Of a stretch of 34,293 bases of DNA, positions 15,477 to 34,202 are shown piece after piece (position 1 is the stretch's first letter; every line of letters starts with the position of its first letter). Source of the stretch: Draconibacterium orientale (GTDB taxonomy: Bacteria > Bacteroidota > Bacteroidia > Bacteroidales > FEN-979). The notes under the pieces are model-generated. The model worked only from the letters and a program-made list of their open reading frames with translations. It made no database searches and was not told the DNA's origin. Both the position numbers and the translations under genes were made by a program. The stretch lies in the NCBI GenBank assembly GCA_020719165.1, contig DYQT01000010.1:1-34293 (forward strand). Direction: 5' to 3'.

Positions 15477-18400
15477 ATGACCTTGCAGGACTTAGTGAAG
15501 AGAAACAATTTATACACCCTTATATGCCTGGCCGTCCTGGTTATTTGTCGTATCCCGGTTTTTTCCGGAGAATCGGCAGGTAATTACATGGTTTCCATGC
15601 CCGGGACATCTCCCCCCGACAGTTTGTACAGAGGTGATACCACACTTCGGTATCCGTTTGTTGATGAAACAGTTATGCCTGGATCAGGAAGCGAGAATCC
15701 AATTTATCTCAAAAATCCATCCAACATTAAAACGAATGTTGAATATGATCCGGTTACCCGCCAGTATTACTACAATTATAAAATAGGAGAAACGGTTTAC
15801 CGGATTCCAACAACCCTGTCGTTCGACGAATTTCAGAATCAGGACATGCAGTCGATGATCAACCAATACTGGAAGGAGCGATCGGAAGCGGCGACGATGG
15901 ACAATGCAACAGGGATCATTCCCAAGATCCGCATCCCCGGGAAGGTGTTTGAAACCATTTTTGGTAACAACACGGTTGATATTCGCCCGCAGGGATCGGC
16001 AGAGATCGACTTTGGCATCGTTTCCAACAGGCGCGACGATCCCATGCTCAGTACCCGTCAGCGCCGACAGACAAACTTCGACTTCAACGAGAAGATACAG
16101 ATGAATGTGGTGGCCAAAATCGGAGATAAAATCGAATTCAAAATTAATTACAACACCGAAGCCACATTCGATTTCGAAAACAAATTGAAGCTCAGGTACG
16201 AAGGCAAAGAAGACGATATTATTCAATTGATTGAAGCGGGCGACGTTAACCTGCCGCTCAGCACAAATCTGATCAGAGGAACCGAGAGCCTCTTTGGCGT
16301 CAAAACAAAATTGAGGTTTGGAAGGGTAACCGTTACCGCACTCTATTCCCAGCAAAAAAGCGAGACTAAAAACATTGTCGTGCAGGGCAATGCTCAAACC
16401 CAAAGATTCAGAATACGGGCCGATGAATATGAAGAGAACAAGCATTTCTTTATCGGACAAAACTTTCGCGACACTTACCGTGACGGTCTCAAGAAGCTGC
16501 CGGTAATCACCTCCAATGTGAATATTCTGAAAATTGAGGTCTGGGCAACCAATATCGGCGCGGCAGTGACGGAGAACCGAAATATTGTGGCGTTCATGGA
16601 TCTTGGTGAGTACAACCCTTACAACACACGATTGTTTACAGGGAACCCCGCGCGCAGATTTCCGTCGAACAACTCGAACGACTTGTTCCAGGTTCTCATG
16701 CCGAATGCCTATGATTCAGGACAGGTGCGCAGCATCAATACTGTGAGCGGTTACCTGAAGGGGGCTCCTTTTTATATGATTGCCGGCGAGGATTTTGAAA
16801 AGGTTGAAAGTGCCCGTAAATTGTTACCATCAGAATACAGTTTCAATCCGAAGCTGGGGTTTATCTCCTTGAACACCGCATTAAATTCCGATCAAATTCT
16901 GGCTGTGGCATACCAGTATCAGGTTGTAGGCGATACCACGGTTCATCAGGTGGGTGAATTTTCCGACCAGGGAATTGCCTCACCAAAAAGTCTGGTGGTG
17001 AAGTTGTTGAAGAGCACTTCGTTGAATACCAGAGTTCCTACATGGAAACTGATGATGAAAAATGTTTATGCACTGGGTGCATACCAGTTGCAGGGGAACG
17101 ATTTTACCATGAACATTTTATACTCTGGAAATGCCAACGGCGTGCCAACAGCTTATATTACAGAAGGAAGAATAAAGGGTGTTCCTCTTTTACGCGTGCT
17201 GAACCTGGATAATGTAAATCAGCAATTCAATCCTCCCGGCGATGGCATGTTCGACTTCATTGACAATGCCGTAACCCAGGGAGGAACCATCCAGGCATCG
17301 AATGGACGAATATTCTTTACGGTGCTCGAGCCGTTTGGCAAGGATCTGCGCGATTCAATTTACGACCCCGCCGACCCAAAAGGATCTCTGGAACTGGCTA
17401 ATAAATACTGTTTTGATTCGCTGTACACCATGACCAAGTCGAATGCAAGGCAGTATCCTGATAAAAATAAATTCGTTTTAGACGGTTTTTACAAATCCGC
17501 TGCCGGTGCAGAAATTTCGCTCAATGCACTGAATGTGCCGGCCGGTTCGGTCAGGGTAACAGCTGGTGGAATCCAATTGATGGAAAATCAGGATTATACC
17601 GTTGATTATACCCTTGGCCGGGTCAGAATCATCAATGAGGGAATCCTTAATTCGGGTACGGCGATCAACATTTCACTGGAGAGCAACGAAATGTTCAATG
17701 TTCAAACCAAGCGGTTGATGGGTGCGCACATCGATTACAAAATAAATAAGGATTTCGTTATCGGAGCCACTATTTTGAATCTGAATGAGCGTCCGTTGAC
17801 ACAAAAGGTAAACTATGGTGATGAACCGATGTCGAACACGATGTGGGGAATGAATCTTACCTATCGAACCCAATCGCGGCTGATAACCCGGTTTGTTGAT
17901 GCCCTTCCGCTCATTACAACCAAAGCCCCGTCGTCCATTGCCGTGGATGTGGAATTTGCCCAATTCATCCCCGGTCATTCCAAAGCAATCGGGCGTTCAG
18001 GAACAACTTATATCGATGATTTTGAAGGTGCTCAATCAACCATCGACATGAAATCGATGTCAAACTGGTATCTGGCAAGTACCCCGCAAGGACAAACAAC
18101 TCCAAACATGTTCCCCGAAGCTGCTCCGGGGCCTCCCACACTTTCTTATGGGTTTAACCGGTCAAAGCTCGGCTGGTACATCATCGATCCGTTGTTCTAT
18201 GATAAAAATACAAATCTTTTACCCCCCAATGTATCTAACCAGGAATTGGCAAATCATTATGTGCGGCAGGTATGGGAAACCGAGATCTTCCCAAACAAAC
18301 AGCCATTGAATGGTGTTCCTGTGAACCTGTCGGTACTTAATCTGGCCTATTATCCTTCGGAGCGGGGATCGTACAACTTCGATGTATCCCCAACCTCAGT

Positions 18401-21400
18401 GTCGAAGGGCTTGAACGCCGACGGAACCCTGGCCAATCCCGAAACCCGGTGGGGAGGCGTAATGCGCAAGATCGAATCAACAGATTTCGATGCCACCAAC
18501 ATTCAGTATATTGAATTCTGGATGATGGACCCTTTCATTTACGATACCTTGAACAGCGGCCAGCTCTATTTTAACCTTGGAGATATATCGGAGGATATTT
18601 TAAGGGATGGGCGAAAAAGTTTCGAAAACGGTTTACCAACCACTGCGCTTGTAACAGAGGTTGACACTACTATTTGGGGCCGTGTGCCACAATTGCAGGC
18701 ACTTGTGGATGCATTTGACAACACCCCTGCCACCCGGCCATTTCAGGATGTGGGATATGACGGATTGACGGATGTTGATGAAATATCTTTCTTTGACACA
18801 TCCTACGTCGCGAAGGTCAGAAACACCTTCGGCGCAAATTCGCAGGCATATATAAATGCATCTTCCGACCCCTCATCTGATGACTTTCATTACTTCAGAG
18901 GGACCGATTATGATGAAAATCCGAATTTCAGCAGTGTGTTGAACCGTTATAAAAAATACAACGGCCCTGAAGGAAACAGCCCAACCACCGAGCAAAGCGT
19001 TGAAACCTACCCGACCATTGCAACTACTCTTCCCAATATGGAAGATATTAACAAAGACAATACATTGAGTGAGGCTGAGCGGTATTACCAATATGTTGTC
19101 CAGTTGCGCCGCGACCAGATGAAGACAGGGTCGAACTACATCACCAATATCTACCATGCCACCGATATTCCCCTGGCCGATGGTACCCGAGGCAATGTTA
19201 ACTGGTATCAGTTTAAAATACCCATCCGCACCCCTGATCAGATTATCGGAACCATCAACGATTTCACCTCCATCCGTTTTATGAGGGTGTTTTTCAAGAA
19301 CTTTCAACGTCCGGTTGTTTGCCGTTTTGCTACACTTGAATTGTCGCGCGGCGAATGGCGGAAATATAACTACAGTCTGCTTTCTCCCGGCGAATATATT
19401 CCCAATGCCGAGCAGAATCAAACCCAGTTCGACATAGCAGCGGTGAGTCTTGAAGAAAACGGCAGCAAACAACCCATTCCATATGTTATGCCTCCGGGGA
19501 TTGAACGCGAAACCAACTGGGGTTCGACCAACATGCAAAAGCTCAATGAACAGTCGATGTCGTTCAAAGTATGCAACCTGGTTGACGGGGATGCCCGGGC
19601 AGCTTATAAAAATGCAGAATTTGATTTCCGTCAGTTTAAACGGCTCCAGATGTATGTTCATGCTGAACAATCTGTTCGCAACCAAAATTTAAAACCAGGC
19701 GATCTTACAATCATCATGCGCATTGGATCCGATTTTACAGAGAACTACTACGAATATGAAATCCCGCTGAACTTTACCGCCTGGGGAACTCAGGCCAACA
19801 ATCCTGACGCTATCTGGCCCGAAAGCAATGCATTCGACATTGACCTTGAACGGTTGGTCAGGGTGAAATATAACCGGCTGGTTGCCATGCGCGACAAGGG
19901 GATTGAACTGACCTCTTCAACACCCTATTCGGAGTTTGACGGGAAAAATAAAATTACCGTTGTGGGTTCTCCTACCATCAGCGATGTTCGCGCCATCATG
20001 GTCGGCGTGAGAAATCCCAAAAAAAGCACCCAAACATCCGATGACGATGGCCAATCGAAATGTGCCGAAATATGGGTGGATGAACTCAGGCTCTCGGAGT
20101 TCAATAAAAATGGAGGATTTGCCGCCACTGCCAGGGTGGCCGTTGAACTTGCCGATCTTGGCCGGATCCAGCTTACCGGAACATACAGCAGTTCGGGGTT
20201 TGGCACATTGGAACAGAAGCAAACCCAGCGTCCGATGGAGGCTGTGACGACTTTTGGATTCGATACCGATCTGGAACTGGGTAAATTTTTCCCGGCCAAA
20301 ACGGGAATTCGCATTCCGATGCACTTTGACTATGCCATGATGCTTACCAGTCCGAAATATGACCCGCTGAATCCGGACTTGTATTTATCTGATGTAATCG
20401 ATGCCTTTGATTCAAAACAACAGAAAGATTCGATCAAACAAATCACGCAGGGATATACCCAGACCAAAAACTTTAACCTGATGAATGTCAGGAAAGACAG
20501 AACCGGGACGAAAAAACCAAAAATATACGATATCGAGAACTTCAACGCAAGTTATGCCTATTCCGAAATTTTTCACCGGGATGTTGATGTCGCGTATGAT
20601 CTGAAGAAGAAATACACGGGCGGATTCGGTTATAACTATTCAACCCAGCCAAAAAACGTGGTACCGTTTCAGCGCGTCAAAGCATTAAATAAATCGAAGG
20701 CTTTTGCCTTAATCAAGGATTTTAATTTCTATTACCTGCCCAAAGCTTTTTCTTTTCGGACCGATATGAACCGTGAGTTCAATCAGCGGCAATTCAGAAA
20801 TAAAAGCAGGGCCATTGTGCCGATGGAAACTTTCTACATCAAACGGTGGGACTGGAGCAGGACGTTCGATTTGAAATATGATTTTGCGAAATCACTTCGG
20901 CTGACGCTTGTTGCCAACACCCAGGCGTTTGTGAACGAACCTCCCGGGCAAATCGACCGTTCAAACCGGGATCAGATATGGAGCGAGATACTCTCCTTCG
21001 GAACCAAAAACAATTATAACCAGGCGCTGAACGTTAGCTGGGATGTACCGATCGGTAAAATTCCGATGCTTGATTTCATCACCCTTCAGGCCGGATATCT
21101 GACAACCTACCGATGGATGGGTGCTCCCATCTCAATCCAGGAACAGTATGGAAATACAATTGAAAATGCCAATGTACAAACACTGAACGGTGGGTTTAAC
21201 TTGGTAACCCTTTACAACAAAATACCCTATCTGAAAAGAATAAACCAGGCATCAACCAACCAGCGTGGAAATAAGCCGGAACCACCGAAAAACAAAAACC
21301 TGGACAAGCAGGACAGCCTGAAACTTTTACCAAACCGACCGAAAATCGGCAAGATCTTGCTTGAAGGAACCGTTCGTTTTTTGATGGCTGTGCGGACTGC

Positions 21401-22730
21401 AAAATTTACCTACACACAGGGAAATGGGACCCTGTTGCCTGGTTTTAAACCAGAACCTGTTGCCTTGGGCAACAACTGGAATCTTAATGCGCCTGGTTTG
21501 GGCTTTGTATTTGGCAGCCAGAATGATATCCGGTATAAAGCTGCCGATAACGGATGGATCACCAATGACACCATGCTGAACACCCAAATGTTTACCAAGT
21601 TTACCGAGAACCTCAGTTTAGCCGTCAGTATTGAACCATTGAAAGATTTGCGTATTGAAGTAGTTGGCAGCCGGCAATACTCCAAATCTCATTCAGAGTA
21701 TTTTAAAGCAAATTCAGCCGGCGACTTTGCTCCCTATTCACCTTACAATCAGGGAAGTTTTACAACCTCCTACATCATTATAGCCACTTCATTTGCACAG
21801 GACGACGGAGCAGGAAAATCTCCTACTTTTGAAACAATGAAGCAGTACAGGTTGCAGATTGCACAACGGTATGCAGCCATGAACCCAAATTCACGTTCGA
21901 TCAACGATTCAACCGGGTTTCCCAATGGCTACGGGCCAACAGATCAGGAGGTGCTCACCTCGGCATTTCTGGCCGCATATGCAGGAAAAGATCCCGCAAA
22001 AATTAAGCTTACCGCTTTCCCAACCATTCCGCTTCCAAACTGGCGGCTAACATACGACGGACTTGCCAAACTCAAGATTTTTAAAACATGGCTCCGCACA
22101 TTCACAATTACCCATGCCTATTTGTCGACCTATAGCGTTGGTTCATTTAATTCCAATATTTATTTCAAAGAGGTAGATGGGATGCCCTCTGTTGTTGACG
22201 ATGCAGGCAATTTTATCCCGGAGGCTCAAACCACGATTGTCTCCATCACCGAGCAGTTTAACCCGTTGATCAAGTTTGACCTGGGCTTTATTAACAGTTT
22301 GCTTGCCAGCGCCGAAATGCGCCGATCGCGCAATATCTCCCTCAGCTTTGTAAACAACCAGCTTACCGAAATCACCAGCAACGAATTTATCGTTGGATTG
22401 GGCTACCGGTTAAAGGGGATCCGGTTCAATTTATCGGGGATGCTTGGCGGGGGAAAGAAAACCAAAACCAACAGCGACCTGAACCTGAAACTTGATTTTT
22501 CAATTCGGAAGAACAAAACAGTTTTGCGCAGGGTTGATCAGGATATCAATCAGATAAGCGTTGGTCAGCAGGTGATGACGCTGAATTTCTCGGCCGATTA
22601 CAATCTCAGTGCCCGGTTCAATGTGAGGTTCTATTTTGATAAGGTGATCAATACCCCGTATGTGTCAAATCAGTATCGTACCTCAAACACCAAAGGGGGT
22701 ATAGCATTACGGTTTACTCTGGGGAATTAG
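15477..22730 (+). CDS. sprA: SprA/Sov, type IX secretion outer-membrane translocon protein
   Basis: 2417 aa; SprA-characteristic sequence (PLRYPFVDET-like start, RIPGKVFETIFGNNTVDIRPQGSAEIDFG, YIDDFEGAQSTIDM, IWVDELRLSEF) and gene order ruvA-sprA-gcvH. Confidence 0.95.
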   Translation: MTLQDLVKRNNLYTLICLAVLVICRIPVFSGESAGNYMVSMPGTSPPDSLYRGDTTLRYPFVDETVMPGSGSENPIYLKNPSNIKTNVEYDPVTRQYYYNYKIGETVYRIPTTLSFDEFQNQDMQSMINQYWKERSEAATMDNATGIIPKIRIPGKVFETIFGNNTVDIRPQGSAEIDFGIVSNRRDDPMLSTRQRRQTNFDFNEKIQMNVVAKIGDKIEFKINYNTEATFDFENKLKLRYEGKEDDIIQLIEAGDVNLPLSTNLIRGTESLFGVKTKLRFGRVTVTALYSQQKSETKNIVVQGNAQTQRFRIRADEYEENKHFFIGQNFRDTYRDGLKKLPVITSNVNILKIEVWATNIGAAVTENRNIVAFMDLGEYNPYNTRLFTGNPARRFPSNNSNDLFQVLMPNAYDSGQVRSINTVSGYLKGAPFYMIAGEDFEKVESARKLLPSEYSFNPKLGFISLNTALNSDQILAVAYQYQVVGDTTVHQVGEFSDQGIASPKSLVVKLLKSTSLNTRVPTWKLMMKNVYALGAYQLQGNDFTMNILYSGNANGVPTAYITEGRIKGVPLLRVLNLDNVNQQFNPPGDGMFDFIDNAVTQGGTIQASNGRIFFTVLEPFGKDLRDSIYDPADPKGSLELANKYCFDSLYTMTKSNARQYPDKNKFVLDGFYKSAAGAEISLNALNVPAGSVRVTAGGIQLMENQDYTVDYTLGRVRIINEGILNSGTAINISLESNEMFNVQTKRLMGAHIDYKINKDFVIGATILNLNERPLTQKVNYGDEPMSNTMWGMNLTYRTQSRLITRFVDALPLITTKAPSSIAVDVEFAQFIPGHSKAIGRSGTTYIDDFEGAQSTIDMKSMSNWYLASTPQGQTTPNMFPEAAPGPPTLSYGFNRSKLGWYIIDPLFYDKNTNLLPPNVSNQELANHYVRQVWETEIFPNKQPLNGVPVNLSVLNLAYYPSERGSYNFDVSPTSVSKGLNADGTLANPETRWGGVMRKIESTDFDATNIQYIEFWMMDPFIYDTLNSGQLYFNLGDISEDILRDGRKSFENGLPTTALVTEVDTTIWGRVPQLQALVDAFDNTPATRPFQDVGYDGLTDVDEISFFDTSYVAKVRNTFGANSQAYINASSDPSSDDFHYFRGTDYDENPNFSSVLNRYKKYNGPEGNSPTTEQSVETYPTIATTLPNMEDINKDNTLSEAERYYQYVVQLRRDQMKTGSNYITNIYHATDIPLADGTRGNVNWYQFKIPIRTPDQIIGTINDFTSIRFMRVFFKNFQRPVVCRFATLELSRGEWRKYNYSLLSPGEYIPNAEQNQTQFDIAAVSLEENGSKQPIPYVMPPGIERETNWGSTNMQKLNEQSMSFKVCNLVDGDARAAYKNAEFDFRQFKRLQMYVHAEQSVRNQNLKPGDLTIIMRIGSDFTENYYEYEIPLNFTAWGTQANNPDAIWPESNAFDIDLERLVRVKYNRLVAMRDKGIELTSSTPYSEFDGKNKITVVGSPTISDVRAIMVGVRNPKKSTQTSDDDGQSKCAEIWVDELRLSEFNKNGGFAATARVAVELADLGRIQLTGTYSSSGFGTLEQKQTQRPMEAVTTFGFDTDLELGKFFPAKTGIRIPMHFDYAMMLTSPKYDPLNPDLYLSDVIDAFDSKQQKDSIKQITQGYTQTKNFNLMNVRKDRTGTKKPKIYDIENFNASYAYSEIFHRDVDVAYDLKKKYTGGFGYNYSTQPKNVVPFQRVKALNKSKAFALIKDFNFYYLPKAFSFRTDMNREFNQRQFRNKSRAIVPMETFYIKRWDWSRTFDLKYDFAKSLRLTLVANTQAFVNEPPGQIDRSNRDQIWSEILSFGTKNNYNQALNVSWDVPIGKIPMLDFITLQAGYLTTYRWMGAPISIQEQYGNTIENANVQTLNGGFNLVTLYNKIPYLKRINQASTNQRGNKPEPPKNKNLDKQDSLKLLPNRPKIGKILLEGTVRFLMAVRTAKFTYTQGNGTLLPGFKPEPVALGNNWNLNAPGLGFVFGSQNDIRYKAADNGWITNDTMLNTQMFTKFTENLSLAVSIEPLKDLRIEVVGSRQYSKSHSEYFKANSAGDFAPYSPYNQGSFTTSYIIIATSFAQDDGAGKSPTFETMKQYRLQIAQRYAAMNPNSRSINDSTGFPNGYGPTDQEVLTSAFLAAYAGKDPAKIKLTAFPTIPLPNWRLTYDGLAKLKIFKTWLRTFTITHAYLSTYSVGSFNSNIYFKEVDGMPSVVDDAGNFIPEAQTTIVSITEQFNPLIKFDLGFINSLLASAEMRRSRNISLSFVNNQLTEITSNEFIVGLGYRLKGIRFNLSGMLGGGKKTKTNSDLNLKLDFSIRKNKTVLRRVDQDINQISVGQQVMTLNFSADYNLSARFNVRFYFDKVINTPYVSNQYRTSNTKGGIALRFTLGN

Positions 22731-28057: not shown

Positions 28058-29671
28058 TTACATGCAACATTTCTTATATTTCTTCCCACTTCCGCAGGGG
28101 CAGGGGGCATTGCGCCCTGGTGTTTTTTCTGCGATAACCGGTATCTGAGGTTCATAAAATGAAGATCGGGATGTTTTTTCATGGTTATCTCCATATAGCG
28201 GATAGTCCGGAATATCAGGTTCATCATCACCATCAATTTCGCTCTTGAAATATTCGTATTGCTCATAAACAGTCAGCATTGGGATGATATCATCATCTTC
28301 GATTGCACCCGATAAATCAGCTTTAACATCGTCAAACGGGCCGCAAAAGTCAATGGATACAAGATCATTTGCAAACAGAGTTCTGATAATCTCCTGCAAT
28401 TCAATGGCTTTTATCCAGGTACAGGAAATGACCATGGATCCAATCAAATTTGTGTCGATGAGCCGTTCATCTTCACGATGATCGATGAAATATTGAAAAA
28501 CTTCCTCAAACCACCGTAAAACCTCACCACGTCGTTCAGGTTGATGCATTGCAATACCTGAAACTGCATCAGATACAACATCACGGGCATATAGTGTAAG
28601 ATTGGGTTCAAACATCAATCTTTTCAGTTTGTCAAGCTGTTGATGACCCAGTTGATATATTGCCGGAATCAAACAATCTTCAAAACAATCTTCAAACCAG
28701 TCAAAGTAAAAAGTTTCATCTTCTTCAAGTAAGCCCAGAATTACCGGAAGACTCGCCTCGGCCTTGCATTCCGTCAGGAATAACACTGCATGGGACAGAA
28801 ACCTGGCACTCACCGGATTAGGAAATTCCTGATCATGCTCATTGTAGAAAAGATACTGATACCTTTGCCGTGCATCCATGATCATCCTTTCCAGATCGCG
28901 AATAAATATATCGCGTGGCAGGGTTAACAGGCTTGAAATTTCCTCAGGGGTAATTGTAAAGTCCCTGTCATATAGAATTTCAATTTCTGGCAGCTCAAAA
29001 ATTGGCACAGTTGTCAACTGCGGCAGACTTCGATCAGCGTATTCCACGGTCCTTCGCTTTGGGCGCCATTCTTCGAACAGTATGACATTTCGCTGTCGCC
29101 GCGCGGCTTCTATCGACTTTTCGGCCATTTCCATGAGAACATATTCCGGATTGCGTGCTTTCAATTTTTCCAGTCTTTTGGCAGCCGGGGCGATTTTCTC
29201 AACAGCAGCATAATAGAGTATCCCCATCATCAGGTAGTCATCCACCTCTGAAGTGAGGAATTCCGTTCGATCCGGAAAAAGTTCTTCAAGCTCAACGAAC
29301 CCGTTGAAAAGCTGGTATGCCTTTTCTATCTCATCCGATAACACGTAATGTAATCCCAAATAAAGCTTGCATGCCAGATAGCCAGGGTGTTCCCTGACAG
29401 CCCGCAGGGCTATTTCAAAAGATTTGCTACGTCGGCCCTGACGATCGTAAATCAGTAAAAGTAATGTTTTATACTCGGGAATATCCGGGTTTTTCGCGAC
29501 AAGTATCTCCAGTTCCGTCGCACTGATTTTTTTTCGTAAAATCCTGATTTCTGTTTCTAACAAAAGTTTCTGGAGTTCTATCGGATATTTGTCAAAATTG
29601 GCGGATTCAAATGAAAAATATTCTCCGGCTATCCTTACGACTGAATCCGCAATAACGTTATCTTTTTTCAT
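28058..29671 (-). CDS. DUF1186 / SEC-C metal-binding motif protein
   Basis: 537 aa; C-terminus GRNAPCPCGSGKKYKKCCM is a SEC-C motif; central ARFLSHAVLFLTECKAEASLPVILGLLEEDETFYFDWFEDCFEDCLIPAIYQLG... is DUF1186/HEAT-like. Confidence 0.8.
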   Translation of the reverse strand: MKKDNVIADSVVRIAGEYFSFESANFDKYPIELQKLLLETEIRILRKKISATELEILVAKNPDIPEYKTLLLLIYDRQGRRSKSFEIALRAVREHPGYLACKLYLGLHYVLSDEIEKAYQLFNGFVELEELFPDRTEFLTSEVDDYLMMGILYYAAVEKIAPAAKRLEKLKARNPEYVLMEMAEKSIEAARRQRNVILFEEWRPKRRTVEYADRSLPQLTTVPIFELPEIEILYDRDFTITPEEISSLLTLPRDIFIRDLERMIMDARQRYQYLFYNEHDQEFPNPVSARFLSHAVLFLTECKAEASLPVILGLLEEDETFYFDWFEDCFEDCLIPAIYQLGHQQLDKLKRLMFEPNLTLYARDVVSDAVSGIAMHQPERRGEVLRWFEEVFQYFIDHREDERLIDTNLIGSMVISCTWIKAIELQEIIRTLFANDLVSIDFCGPFDDVKADLSGAIEDDDIIPMLTVYEQYEYFKSEIDGDDEPDIPDYPLYGDNHEKTSRSSFYEPQIPVIAEKTPGRNAPCPCGSGKKYKKCCM

Positions 29672-29817: not shown

Positions 29818-31536
29818 TTATTGAAGAATTATCAAACCTATCATATCTAATTTCTCAGTTATTTCTTTATCAACTTCTGAAGGATTCAATAGTCGTATCA
29901 ATTTATAATAATCACGTTTATAAAAATCCTGTGGAAACTTTAGCCGTTTATAAAACTCATTAAAAATAATATCAAGCCAATCATCCGATAATTTTGTTTT
30001 ATTCCACCATTCGTTCGTGGGATCATTCAAGTAGATTTTAGGAGTGACATCTTCAATTGCTTGTCTCATTACTTCCTGTATTCTTACACCACCAATATAA
30101 GGATATTGATTTCCCATCAGGGAGGCGTGCCTGATGAGCAATTCAGGTTTTGCAAAATAGTTTTCAAGTTCTCTTTTGCTCCAACACATGACGTTGAGTT
30201 TTGGATTAGCCTGAAGATTTGGCAGATAATCAAAAATTGCTAATCCTTTTAATTCCGGGAAAATCTCTGAGAGAGACACAAAGTTATTAATAGCAGTCCA
30301 GGGAACATTGTCCGACGTATATTGAACATTGGCAAATTTCAAATATGGCTCTACTTTGTGATTGATTTTTAATGCAAACTGTTTCAGCATTTCTAAATCA
30401 GTCGATCCCTCAAGATATAATATGTGTTTTTTTGATTTTGCCAAATAATATTTTTCCCATCCGATATCGGTTAATGATTTTCGGAAGTTTTTCAATTTTT
30501 GAGAAGAGTTTACACTATTTAACTCATGGACAGTATTTTCGATAATTGCTACGATTTTTGAGGCGTCAGCAGCTTCGTCCAGCACGACTTCGGAATGTGA
30601 GGCGATTAATACCTGTGAATTCATGTCGCTGGCAACTTCATTTATTATTTGGAACGCTTCTCTTTGCCTGATCACTTCAAGGTGGGCATCAGGTTCATCC
30701 AATAAAAGAATTACATTGGGATTCGCATACATATAGGAAAGCAGCAGTAACGTTTGTTGAAATCCTCTTCCAGCCGATGAAATATCATAGAGAATTTCAT
30801 TTTCCCTGTATTGCAACTGAATAATCCCGGTGGCTTTAATGAACTCTGGTTTTAATAAATCTGCGCCGAACATCGACTTGATCCCTTTGCACAATTTTTT
30901 CCACTTTTCTTCGGGATCATATCCCGTAGAATGGGGTGTGTCCGGGAATAGAATTTCATAACATATATTCCTTAAAACCTCTGCTGTCTTTCCCTCTCCT
31001 AATTTTCTGGAAATAGAGCCTTGTGTGAGTTTATCTTCATTTGTCGAAATTCCGGACATGGGTTGCAAAAATCCAAAGTGAATACCTTTATCCTTTTCAT
31101 AAAAAGACTTTACTTCTTTAAGACCACTGGTTATTCTACAGGAGAAAGACTCTGCATTTGAAAATTCAAACTCAGCATTGCAGGTCCAATCTTTCCCTTC
31201 CTCTTCACCTTTGAGTTCAACTTCAAGTTTAACATGTTTCGTCTGACCGGATTCACTTGTCTCAGTCACTTTTCGTTTTCGCCATAAGAATCTTGCATCT
31301 GCAATAGGACTGTTTAGCAGATCCCTGCGGTTAATTGTTACGGCACCACTTCTGTTGAGATCATTTTTAATGTTTGCCTGGATGAAATTTGTAACACCAA
31401 TTTCCCATAAGCACAAAGCTTGAAATATCGTTGATTTGCCCGAATTATTTGGACCAATGATTACCACTGATTGTGCTAAAGGAAAAGAAACCGTTTCCAG
31501 TTTTTTGAAGTTCTTAATACTGATGTGGGTTATCAT
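29818..31536 (-). CDS. OLD-family AAA ATPase/TOPRIM endonuclease-like protein
   Basis: ITHISIKNFKKLETVSFPLAQSVVIIGPNNSGKSTIFQAL (Walker A), VILLLDEPDAHLEVIRQREAFQII (Walker B), ILYLEGSTDLEMLKQFA...GLAIFDYLPN...CWSKRELENYF (TOPRIM-like). ORF can extend to 31569. Confidence 0.85.
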   Translation of the reverse strand: MITHISIKNFKKLETVSFPLAQSVVIIGPNNSGKSTIFQALCLWEIGVTNFIQANIKNDLNRSGAVTINRRDLLNSPIADARFLWRKRKVTETSESGQTKHVKLEVELKGEEEGKDWTCNAEFEFSNAESFSCRITSGLKEVKSFYEKDKGIHFGFLQPMSGISTNEDKLTQGSISRKLGEGKTAEVLRNICYEILFPDTPHSTGYDPEEKWKKLCKGIKSMFGADLLKPEFIKATGIIQLQYRENEILYDISSAGRGFQQTLLLLSYMYANPNVILLLDEPDAHLEVIRQREAFQIINEVASDMNSQVLIASHSEVVLDEAADASKIVAIIENTVHELNSVNSSQKLKNFRKSLTDIGWEKYYLAKSKKHILYLEGSTDLEMLKQFALKINHKVEPYLKFANVQYTSDNVPWTAINNFVSLSEIFPELKGLAIFDYLPNLQANPKLNVMCWSKRELENYFAKPELLIRHASLMGNQYPYIGGVRIQEVMRQAIEDVTPKIYLNDPTNEWWNKTKLSDDWLDIIFNEFYKRLKFPQDFYKRDYYKLIRLLNPSEVDKEITEKLDMIGLIILQ

Positions 31537-31559
31537 AATAGCAATTATTTTTTGGTTTT

Positions 31560-31759
31560 TTATTTCCATTTCTCCGGAATTTTAAGTTCAAATCCATCGG
31601 GCTTAACAATCGTGTCGATGAAATTGCCGCGGACAAATCGTTATCACCTGAGATGAGGATCGCGGTGTCAAATAAATAGTATCGGTTCCATCCCTTTGAC
31701 TTTAAGCCAAAATACAGATTGAATCCATCAATATACACCACTGTTCTTTTCATTTTCAA
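31560..31759 (-). pseudogene. Remnant of an NYN-domain (LabA/DUF88-like) ribonuclease gene with two apparent internal deletions
   Basis: KRTVVYIDGFNLYFGLKSKGWNRYY (NYN N-terminus) is fused directly to FDTAILISGDNDLSAAI (a motif normally ~100 aa later), then in another frame FIDTIVKPDGFELKIPEKWK* (typical C-terminus). Confidence 0.75.
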
Positions 31760-31913: not shown

Positions 31914-33146
31914 CTATTTCACCTGATCCCCATTAATTATCCCCAGCCACCGCAGTACAGCCATCGTCACGGTCTTCCTTGCCACATTAAAATCATCCAC
32001 TTTTTCCTGGTTTTTAGGTTCCACCAGCGTTGCCAGAAAATAAACTTTGCCTTTCACTTCAATCCACCCAACGAACCACCCGTAATTGTTGCCATTTCGA
32101 ACAGCCCATCCGGTTTTCCCGTTCAGGGTATATTCGGGGGTGGTTTCATTCATCATGATGATTTTCACCTCCTGCATCACAGATTTCTTTAATGGAAGGT
32201 TTTCTTCATACAAGCGCCTCAGAAATCCAATCTGCTGCCTTGGTGTGATGCGTGAATTTCCTTCCAGCCAAAACAAATCGATGTTGTCGGTCCGCACATC
32301 CATCCCTGGATAGTTCATCATTGCAAGGAACGACTTCATACGGCCAGGTCCGATCTTGCGAGCCAGTTCCTGGTAACATGGAACACATGAAACCGCGAAC
32401 GCTTCCTTCAATGTCAGCTCTTTTTCCCATTGTGGGAGCCTGCGTTTCTCTCCCTGCCACCTGAAAATATAGTTTGTGTCGATCATGTCATTTTCAAGTC
32501 CGATTAGGGTGTTTGGTATCTTGAAGGTGGAGGCAGGGAGGTAGCCGCTGTCCCATCTGGCAGGATCATAACCAAAGAATCTGTTTGTTTCAGGGTCGAG
32601 GATCATGATGGTTCCCGTGAGACCATATTTATCGAATATACTTTTCAGCGCCAGCGCAGAGTCAGTGCCCGATTTCAACGCTGTAACCTGCTTCATAATG
32701 TCGTTGGGAATGGTTGCCGAGAGAACATATTGTGCAATCTTCCATGTTCCCTCCTTTTTTACCAGCACTCCCGATCCCCGGCATACTCCCATCTGAGTCG
32801 TCAGCAACTCGTCAAACCATGCCGTGCTGCCTTCACGACCCAGGTATAGGTTACGGTTGAAGGAATGAAAATCCCAGGTCTTCTTCCTGTCAAAATGGGG
32901 CTTGCACCAGACGCTGAATTCAGTCGTGGTCCAGTATTCCGAGGCATCGGTGCCGATGAATACTCCATCGGGCGTCATGGCGCCGATGTAGGCCGTGTGG
33001 TTGCCTTGGGCCGCATCGCGGTGCCACTTGTCCAATAATCGATTTAAATGGTTTTGTAAACTGTCATTTAACGAAAGTGCTTGCAGTGGCTGGCATGCAG
33101 TCACGGATACAATGATTAGCACAAGAAGAAAGGTGACATTTTTCAT
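31914..33146 (-). CDS. SnoaL-like (NTF2-fold) domain fused to class D (OXA-like) beta-lactamase, putative lipoprotein
   Basis: Lipobox-like MKNVTFLLVLIIVSVTAC; N-terminal LLDKWHRDAAQGNHTAYIGAMTPDGVFIGTDASEYW...STAWFDELLTT...GSGVLVKKEGTWKIAQYVLS (SnoaL/DUF4440-like); C-terminal PASTFKIPNTLIGLE (STFK), SCVPCYQELARKIG (SxV), FWLEG, NGKTGWAV (KTG). Confidence 0.88.
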   Translation of the reverse strand: MKNVTFLLVLIIVSVTACQPLQALSLNDSLQNHLNRLLDKWHRDAAQGNHTAYIGAMTPDGVFIGTDASEYWTTTEFSVWCKPHFDRKKTWDFHSFNRNLYLGREGSTAWFDELLTTQMGVCRGSGVLVKKEGTWKIAQYVLSATIPNDIMKQVTALKSGTDSALALKSIFDKYGLTGTIMILDPETNRFFGYDPARWDSGYLPASTFKIPNTLIGLENDMIDTNYIFRWQGEKRRLPQWEKELTLKEAFAVSCVPCYQELARKIGPGRMKSFLAMMNYPGMDVRTDNIDLFWLEGNSRITPRQQIGFLRRLYEENLPLKKSVMQEVKIIMMNETTPEYTLNGKTGWAVRNGNNYGWFVGWIEVKGKVYFLATLVEPKNQEKVDDFNVARKTVTMAVLRWLGIINGDQVK

Positions 33147-33220
33147 GGATTGCTTTGTTTTCTCAGATGGCAAAATTATGGAAGATAATGAAAGGGGCAG
33201 GTATTTGACTAAAAACATAT

Positions 33221-33251
33221 TTTGGAAAATAAATAAATTTGACTATTTTTG
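33221..33251 (+). promoter_or_regulatory. Putative promoter TTTG-N19-TATTTTTG for the HEPN/MNT module
   Basis: TTTG 33221-33224 and TATTTTTG 33244-33251; ATG at 33272. Confidence 0.55.
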
Positions 33252-33291
33252 TCAAAACAAATTTTGTCAAAATGTTAACTTTTGGTCAAAA
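33247..33291 (+). promoter_or_regulatory. Iterated operator candidate: TTTTGTCAAAA, TTTTGTCAAAA, TTTTGGTCAAAA
   Basis: Copies at 33247-33257, 33262-33272 and 33280-33291; each is a TTTTG...CAAAA palindrome. Copies overlap the -7 box, the start codon and the first codons of the XRE-MNT gene. Confidence 0.65.
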
Positions 33292-33862
33292 AATCAGAAC
33301 CTGCAGAATTGAGCGCAAATTACCCCTGCGGATTATTGCTGCAGAATTGGATGTTGATCAGGCCATCCTCAGTAAAATCGAACGTGGATTAAAACGGGCC
33401 ACACGCGAACATGTGCTGAAACTAGCAGCCTTTTTTTCTATCAATTTAAATGAACTCCTGTTAGCCTGGCTTTCCGATAACCTGGTTTATACGCTCCAGT
33501 CGGAGGAGTTTGCCATAGAGGCTTTGCAGGTTGCTGAAGAGAAAGTTGGCTATGCAAGGAAAGAAAAGTTAAACCGGATCACCCTAATCCAAAGATTACA
33601 GGATTTTTTCAGCAACGACGGACGAGTTTCAAAAGTATGGTTGTTTGGATCATACGCCAGAGGGCAGGAGCGGATAGGAAGTGACGTTGATCTGATGGTT
33701 TCATACTCAGAAAAGGCATCCGGAACATTATTTGACTACGCCGATATTAAATATCAGCTAGAACTGTTGCTCAATTTGAAAGTTGACATTGTTGAGGAGG
33801 GGTTCATTAACACCTTCGCACAGAATAATATAAATAGGGATAAAGTATTGATTTATGGATAA
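33272..33862 (+). CDS. XRE-family HTH fused to minimal nucleotidyltransferase (MntA-like antitoxin)
   Basis: MLTFGQKIRTCRIERKLPLRIIAAELDVDQAILSKIERGLKRATREHVLKLAAFF (HTH) plus VWLFGSYARGQERIGSDVDLMVSY (GSxARG...SDxDL MNT motif). Confidence 0.88.
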   Translation: MLTFGQKIRTCRIERKLPLRIIAAELDVDQAILSKIERGLKRATREHVLKLAAFFSINLNELLLAWLSDNLVYTLQSEEFAIEALQVAEEKVGYARKEKLNRITLIQRLQDFFSNDGRVSKVWLFGSYARGQERIGSDVDLMVSYSEKASGTLFDYADIKYQLELLLNLKVDIVEEGFINTFAQNNINRDKVLIYG

Positions 33863-34202
33863 TTTTGAGCCCTCATCTGTCGAAAGGCTTGTACATATCT
33901 CGACTGCGATAGAGCAGATTCTCAAATTCTGCGATGGGAAAACCGAAGCCGATTTCCTGAGTGATGATATGCTGAGCAGCAGTGTTTTGTATCAATTTAT
34001 CATCATTGGTGAGGCAATTCAATTTGTTGATCACGAAATTCTTAAGAAACATCCATATCCATGGCATTTACCACGTTCGTTTCGAAATTATATTGCGCAT
34101 GAGTATTTCGGAATGAATCTTAAGCAAGTATTTAAAACAGTTACAGATTTATTGCCTGATTTTAAGGTGTTGGTAGACAGAATGATTGAACAGGAACGAT
34201 AA
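33855..34202 (+). CDS. HEPN-domain (DUF86/HepT-like) toxin
   Basis: 115 aa; RSFRNYIAHEYFG contains the RX4HXY HEPN motif (RNYIAHEY); 8-nt overlap with the MNT gene. Confidence 0.88.
   Translation: MDNFEPSSVERLVHISTAIEQILKFCDGKTEADFLSDDMLSSSVLYQFIIIGEAIQFVDHEILKKHPYPWHLPRSFRNYIAHEYFGMNLKQVFKTVTDLLPDFKVLVDRMIEQER

Follow-up and report, generated by a model that had tools for sequence, protein, structure and literature searches.

A SnoaL_3 (NTF2-fold) domain joined to a class D (OXA-type) beta-lactamase domain in a group of Bacteroidales

The window analysed here, a stretch of 34,293 nucleotides assigned to Draconibacterium orientale and taken from a draft assembly of 520 contigs, encodes a protein in which a small domain of the SnoaL_3 family precedes a class D beta-lactamase domain (Table 1). 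The frame from 33146 to 31914 (-) is open throughout, with no interruption, and a further in-frame ATG lies upstream of the start, at 33218. An initial annotation of the letters had placed both domains in one open reading frame, and this was confirmed, the frame being single and intact and the SnoaL_3 and class D profiles both scoring above their cut-offs.

Table 1. The fusion gene and its features, in window positions.
Feature	Residues	Positions	Strand	Basis or remark
Fusion gene, 410 aa		31914..33146	(-)	Signal peptide, SnoaL_3/NTF2-fold domain, linker helix and class D (OXA-type) beta-lactamase domain
N-terminal signal sequence	1-24	33075..33146	(-)	VTAC (15-18) fits lipobox
SnoaL_3/NTF2-fold domain	35-147	32706..33044	(-)	Pfam, orthologue conservation, predicted fold
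Interdomain linker	148-166	32649..32705	(-)	Inside predicted helix 149-173
Class D beta-lactamase domain	167-403	31938..32648	(-)	Profiles, fold
SxxK motif, STFK	206-209	32520..32531	(-)	S206 nucleophile, K209 presumed carbamylated lysine; invariant in 14 fusion proteins
SxV motif, SCV	253-255	32382..32390	(-)	Within SCVPC, common to related OXA domains without SnoaL
FWLEG	292-296	32259..32273	(-)	Motif alignment; omega-loop Trp is W293
KTG motif	344-346	32109..32117	(-)	Motif alignment
R390	390	31977..31979	(-)	By alignment, position of OXA carboxylate-binding Arg

Several other genes of the window were recorded alongside. Adjoining the fusion gene and divergent from it (33239-34202, +) is a toxin-antitoxin module of the MntA/HepT type, made up of an HTH plus MNT-type nucleotidyltransferase (207 aa) and then a HepT-like protein (115 aa). 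At 29818-31569 (-), downstream of the fusion gene, an OLD/Gabija-like AAA ATPase is encoded that matches many PADLOC models in part (NsnB, mads_3, AriA, GajA); it is possibly a defence gene, with no recognised partner. A short ORF (31514-31759, -) has a weak match to NYN-domain proteins (E 0.036) and looks like a shortened one; it reads YIDGFNLYFGLK, followed shortly by ILISGDND, and may be a remnant that has undergone an internal deletion. A SEC-C/DUF1186 protein is encoded at 28058-29671 (-), and at another locus (L029) a homologue of it follows the fusion gene at a distance of about 0.5 kb; a very long ORF of 2417 aa occupies 15477-22730 (+).

The protein had been described as a putative lipoprotein. 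VTAC does fit a lipobox in the window protein, but the lipoprotein reading is weak, and the lipobox is not a conserved trait: across the 14 fusion homologues a lipobox match, even a weak one, was found in just one, and most carry an AQ-type, Sec/SPI-like signal end. A conserved lipoprotein was accordingly rejected. The fusion product is presumably exported via Sec to the periplasm.

The initial annotation recognised an NTF2-fold or SnoaL-like domain in the N-terminal half (about 33062-32694), and the Pfam profile, the orthologues and the predicted fold all bear this out. Residues 35-147 matched Pfam SnoaL_3 (PF13474) with 80.7 bits against a cut-off of 22 (E 1.4e-22), and the signature residues of this half are W41 H42, G65 T66 D67, E70, W72, W91, R98, W110, D112 E113, C122 R123 G124, Y140 and P147 N148. 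Modelled alone, the domain gave a pLDDT of 88.8 and a pTM of 0.80. Foldseek returned 295 PDB matches at E <= 0.001, the best of them NTF2-like with TM of about 0.6-0.7, and the fold matches include bacterial CaMKII-association-like proteins, DUF4783, SgcJ and CaMKII hub (oligomerisation) domains; a sequence search of the PDB with this half yielded nothing beyond one insignificant match. Sixteen positions are invariant in the fused and stand-alone forms (G65, T66, D67, E70, W72, F77, F85, W91, R98, E113, R123, G124, Y140, L142, P147 and N148), which argues that the fused copy retains its function.

In an even sample of 371 Bacteroidota genomes of good quality, 83 contain the SnoaL family, usually in one copy. 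Stand-alone relatives are mostly separate proteins of about 160-200 aa with a signal sequence, and these secreted proteins have the signature residues, the signal sequence and the C-terminal helix in common with the fusion half; those aligned share about 36-62% identity with the domain of the window protein. Unlike the fusion, they are not joined to a beta-lactamase, and no beta-lactamase frame was seen near their genes in the flanking stretches examined, many of which were short. Gene neighbourhood as a guide to a common functional partner was tried and abandoned, the neighbours being lineage-specific (epimerase-like, carboxypeptidase-like, amylase/MFS) and none of them shared. In three genomes of one genus (L149, L150, L152) the stand-alone gene is flanked by alpha-amylase-like and MFS-transporter-like genes on the same strand, a possible functional clue. 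Proteins of about 290-310 aa at L138, L139 and L141 carry the SnoaL family domain after an apparent second NTF2-like domain (Lumazine_bd_2/SnoaL_4-like in L138).

Assignment of the C-terminal half (about 32657-31944) to the class D beta-lactamases, also made in the initial annotation, agrees with two profiles, the orthologues and a predicted OXA fold. NCBIfam NF012161 (class D) matched residues 167-403 with 251.3 bits, barely above its cut-off of 250, and Pfam PF00905 (penicillin-binding/transpeptidase fold) matched residues 198-379 with 107.8 bits (E 7.7e-31). The STFK, SCV, FWLEG and KTG motifs lie in the sequence where they had been placed, and S206-K209, S253-V255, W293 and K344-G346 are invariant in the 14 fusion proteins; R390 takes, by alignment, the position of the carboxylate-binding arginine of OXA enzymes. 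The OXA region of the AlphaFold model has a pLDDT mostly above 90 and matched 6nhs in Foldseek with a TM of 0.93 by target length, other solved class D matches being OXA-48 and OXA-10. The nearest solved structure, 6nhs (YbxI-type, Nostoc), is 42% identical over the aligned region, and the nearest Bacteroidota plasmid forms, OXA-209 and OXA-347, which are annotated beta-lactamases, are 45-46% identical; both comparisons concern the OXA half only. This half has SxxK, SxV, the omega Trp, KTG and the fold in common with class D beta-lactamases, and in a tree it was placed within a Bacteroidota class D clade.

The YGN-like motif, which is characteristic of these enzymes though absent from some, is replaced by YPG, as had been noticed from the letters. 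The replacement is real but was discarded as a distinctive feature, since related OXA domains, whether they belong to the fusion clade or not, differ at this position (YPG, YGS, FGA, YGH, YGD, YGK). Because of this variation, and because the characteristic class D motifs named in PMC9045261 are SxxK, SxV, KTG and the omega-loop Trp, with no others, YPG was not taken to exclude class D membership. A YbxI-like enzyme of river-water origin increased the cefiderocol MICs of a laboratory E. coli (PMC12915585). In PMC9045261, however, a cluster with intact motifs has so far comprised only low-activity proteins, so that conservation of motifs is insufficient to guarantee activity.

In stand-alone SnoaL proteins the C-terminal tail is the homologue of the linker, which is kept in proteins lacking one or the other domain. 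Structure prediction, a check proposed in the initial annotation, was carried out with AlphaFold: the N-terminal part folds NTF2-like and the C-terminal part as an OXA enzyme, the two being connected by helix 149-173 (mean pLDDT 85.4, pTM 0.63 for the full protein). With this pTM and a stretch of low pLDDT at about residues 141-160, the packing of the domains is not confidently modelled. A BlaR1-type sensor, which has an M56 metallopeptidase and several membrane helices before an OXA-like domain, was set aside, since Pfam gives solely SnoaL_3 and PF00905 and the N-terminal half is predicted to be a soluble NTF2 fold. PBP2a (MecA) has an NTF2-like MecA_N domain ahead of its transpeptidase domain, and the likeness lies in an NTF2-like domain standing before a penicillin-interactive one. 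PBP2a is, however, not a class D enzyme and does not appear among the 50 best fold matches of the SnoaL half; its architecture was rejected here after a Pfam profile search in which PF05223 had no match at E <= 1.

The initial annotation also called for a census of the architecture. Among 19 genomes of the same genus, its own included, 14 carry the full-length fusion without stops, three carry the OXA part without the SnoaL domain and two have no match. The 13 other same-genus fusions are 60-73% identical to the window protein, and each of the 14 aligned members has a match to both Pfam families. When named genomes were scanned, 14 fusion loci besides the window emerged, all in metagenome-assembled genomes and most labelled Bacteroidales, and among them was a fifteenth fusion (L039). 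Other long class D frames were sought in an order sample of 393 genomes and a phylum sample of 396, which overlap, and none of the four longest full class D matches has SnoaL (a weak 666-aa match, G478, falls outside those four); one has a weak alpha/beta-hydrolase-like N-terminus, one has an N-terminal extension of about 150 aa, and the others are apparently over-long stop-to-stop frames. At L158 (G243:C4:185000-188500) a class D domain follows an N-terminal part of about 240 aa, making 489 aa from an in-frame ATG; this part has a weak alpha/beta-hydrolase match (E 0.0025, below cut-off), and the protein is possibly another OXA fusion. At L160 (G363:C1:4202000-4204500) a 381-aa class D protein has an extension of about 150 aa after its signal sequence, with no assigned family.

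A literature search found no work pairing SnoaL with a class D beta-lactamase. In a survey of 24,916 OXA-domain proteins (PMC9045261), the main text gives, for beta-lactamase-like members longer than 350 residues, only fusions to class C enzymes, a single fusion to a crotonase and, in cluster 21, three N-terminal extensions that reach 423 aa and are left without explanation; the SnoaL/class D pairing is not named in that text. In LRA-13 and the other fusions of class C with class D (PMC5967600, PMC9045261), class D domains are naturally joined to a second domain in environmental bacteria; their partner, unlike SnoaL, is a second beta-lactamase, and in LRA-13 both domains are active on beta-lactams. 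An NTF2-fold N-terminal part and a hydrolase C-terminal part, as in the fusion, are also found in the DUF3828/DUF3887/DUF4878 survey (PMC3924330), whose NTF2 families differ from SnoaL_3 and whose available text leaves the kind of beta-lactamase unspecified. NTF2-like/beta-lactamase fusions and other OXA fusions are thus already known, and what appears to be new here is that an OXA domain has been joined to a secreted SnoaL_3 family, widespread in Bacteroidota, and that the fusion is passed on vertically.

The history of the fusion was followed in trees of both halves. In the OXA tree the fusions and the SnoaL-less L041, L042 and L043 form one group and the SnoaL-less L046 is sister to the rest, with 100/98 for the whole; the forks holding all fusions together have modest support (90/57 and 95/64), and the tree requires four label changes, or two on the well-supported branches alone. 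Of the SnoaL helix, L041 still has the first part (LDKWHPDATAGN); L043 retains the SnoaL tail (SLMNKVTAMKSGTDSAL) and L042 has a divergent tail, and the different break points of these remnants strengthen the reading that SnoaL was lost. No second copy of the SnoaL family was found in the three SnoaL-less genomes (L041-L043), in which the OXA domain is conserved with all motifs intact. In another genus of the family, the protein L052 has no OXA domain and ends in KSKTDSLLILKSKF and a stop, matching the linker; in the SnoaL tree it falls inside the fusion group (90/56, weak, at the nearest fork and 98/94 for a larger set containing it). Tree topology and linker remnants suggest a single origin of the fusion in an ancestor of this Bacteroidales group, and, as far as draft assemblies go, loss of SnoaL in place at least twice and probably three times, with probably one loss of OXA (L052). 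Both halves are under equal purifying selection, with pN/pS of 0.280 for SnoaL, 0.279 for OXA and 0.366 for the linker (91 pairs), figures that are relative, synonymous sites being saturated in about half of the pairs.

Taken together, the fusion product is probably a periplasmic class D serine beta-lactamase tethered to an independently working NTF2-fold protein; we infer its Sec-dependent export, its hydrolytic activity and the independence of its halves. In a single event, a mature class D enzyme would have been attached to a small secreted SnoaL_3 protein, at the C-terminal helix of the latter. A beta-lactam would acylate Ser206 of the OXA half, and carbamylated Lys209, held by Trp293, would activate the water that frees the acylated serine; conserved motifs and the annotated relatives OXA-209 and OXA-347 point to such beta-lactamase activity. 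Against it count the low-activity cluster with intact motifs, the YbxI-type title of the nearest solved structure, 6nhs, and the narrow margin of the NF012161 score. The SnoaL half would most likely retain the function of its stand-alone relatives, be it ligand binding or a reaction, in a pocket of its own, tethered to the OXA half yet not required by the enzyme. Strict dependence of the halves is argued against by the loss of each without loss of the other, and the suggestion in the initial annotation that SnoaL could alter substrate capture fared poorly for the same reason: in three same-genus proteins that lost SnoaL the OXA domain is conserved and has every motif, and L052 apparently lost OXA and kept SnoaL, so that the halves look separable.

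That two adjacent genes were joined by a sequencing or assembly error has a negligible probability. The draft state of the assembly is all that favours it, and a chance frame or sequencing join is ruled out because 13 other same-genus genomes carry stop-free full-length homologues; with the identical architecture in 14 genus assemblies and in L039, the error is refuted, and the frameshift into two genes that the initial annotation had considered did not appear. It is possible, if unlikely, that the beta-lactamase is modulated by the SnoaL half, which, acting as an oligomerisation or ligand-sensing NTF2 domain, would make the OXA half dimerise, determine where it is located or tune it allosterically. 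Such a role has a precedent in PMC3924330, where NTF2-like domains before hydrolases, one of them a beta-lactamase, are proposed as regulators, and it is in keeping with the CaMKII hub domains among the fold matches; the equal constraint on the halves and the fact that most genomes of the genus have kept the fusion are also compatible with functional coupling. The three same-genus homologues that keep every OXA motif with neither a SnoaL domain nor a separate SnoaL copy speak against modulation, as does the low confidence of AlphaFold on domain packing.

An unlikely further reading is that a ligand such as a cell-wall fragment or an antibiotic is sensed or processed by the SnoaL half, which would thereby control, localise or complement the OXA half; the protein would then serve in the periplasm as a beta-lactam response protein with two functions, and, were this true, the SnoaL-less homologues would be natural uncoupled variants. 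Very unlikely, in turn, is an OXA half that recognises penicillin or hydrolyses cell-wall peptides in a house-keeping pathway with the SnoaL protein, and is not a resistance enzyme. Fusion genes do lie among ordinary chromosomal neighbours common to several genomes (thiamine-phosphate kinase-like, threonine aldolase-like, TonB receptor, uvrC-like), BlaR/BlaI was not recognised among recurrent neighbours when their sequences were inspected by reading, and low-activity class D homologues are known (PMC9045261). Against a house-keeping role stand the intact catalytic motifs, the identity of about 45% to plasmid-borne OXA-209 and OXA-347, and the frequency of class D genes, which 101 of the 396 genomes sampled across the phylum carry.

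In summary, the tethering of a class D enzyme to an independently working SnoaL_3 protein remains the preferred reading. No plasmid record covering at least 80% of the fusion protein was found, and, the full fusion being absent from the plasmid records searched, it is not shown to be a resistance threat; because either half can be lost, it looks like a stable joining of two partners, less like a new resistance machine. Fusion to a widespread secreted family of Bacteroidota is a clue to the SnoaL family itself, hinting that the stand-alone SnoaL protein shares a compartment with beta-lactamases, and the natural SnoaL-less members make the role of the partner directly testable.
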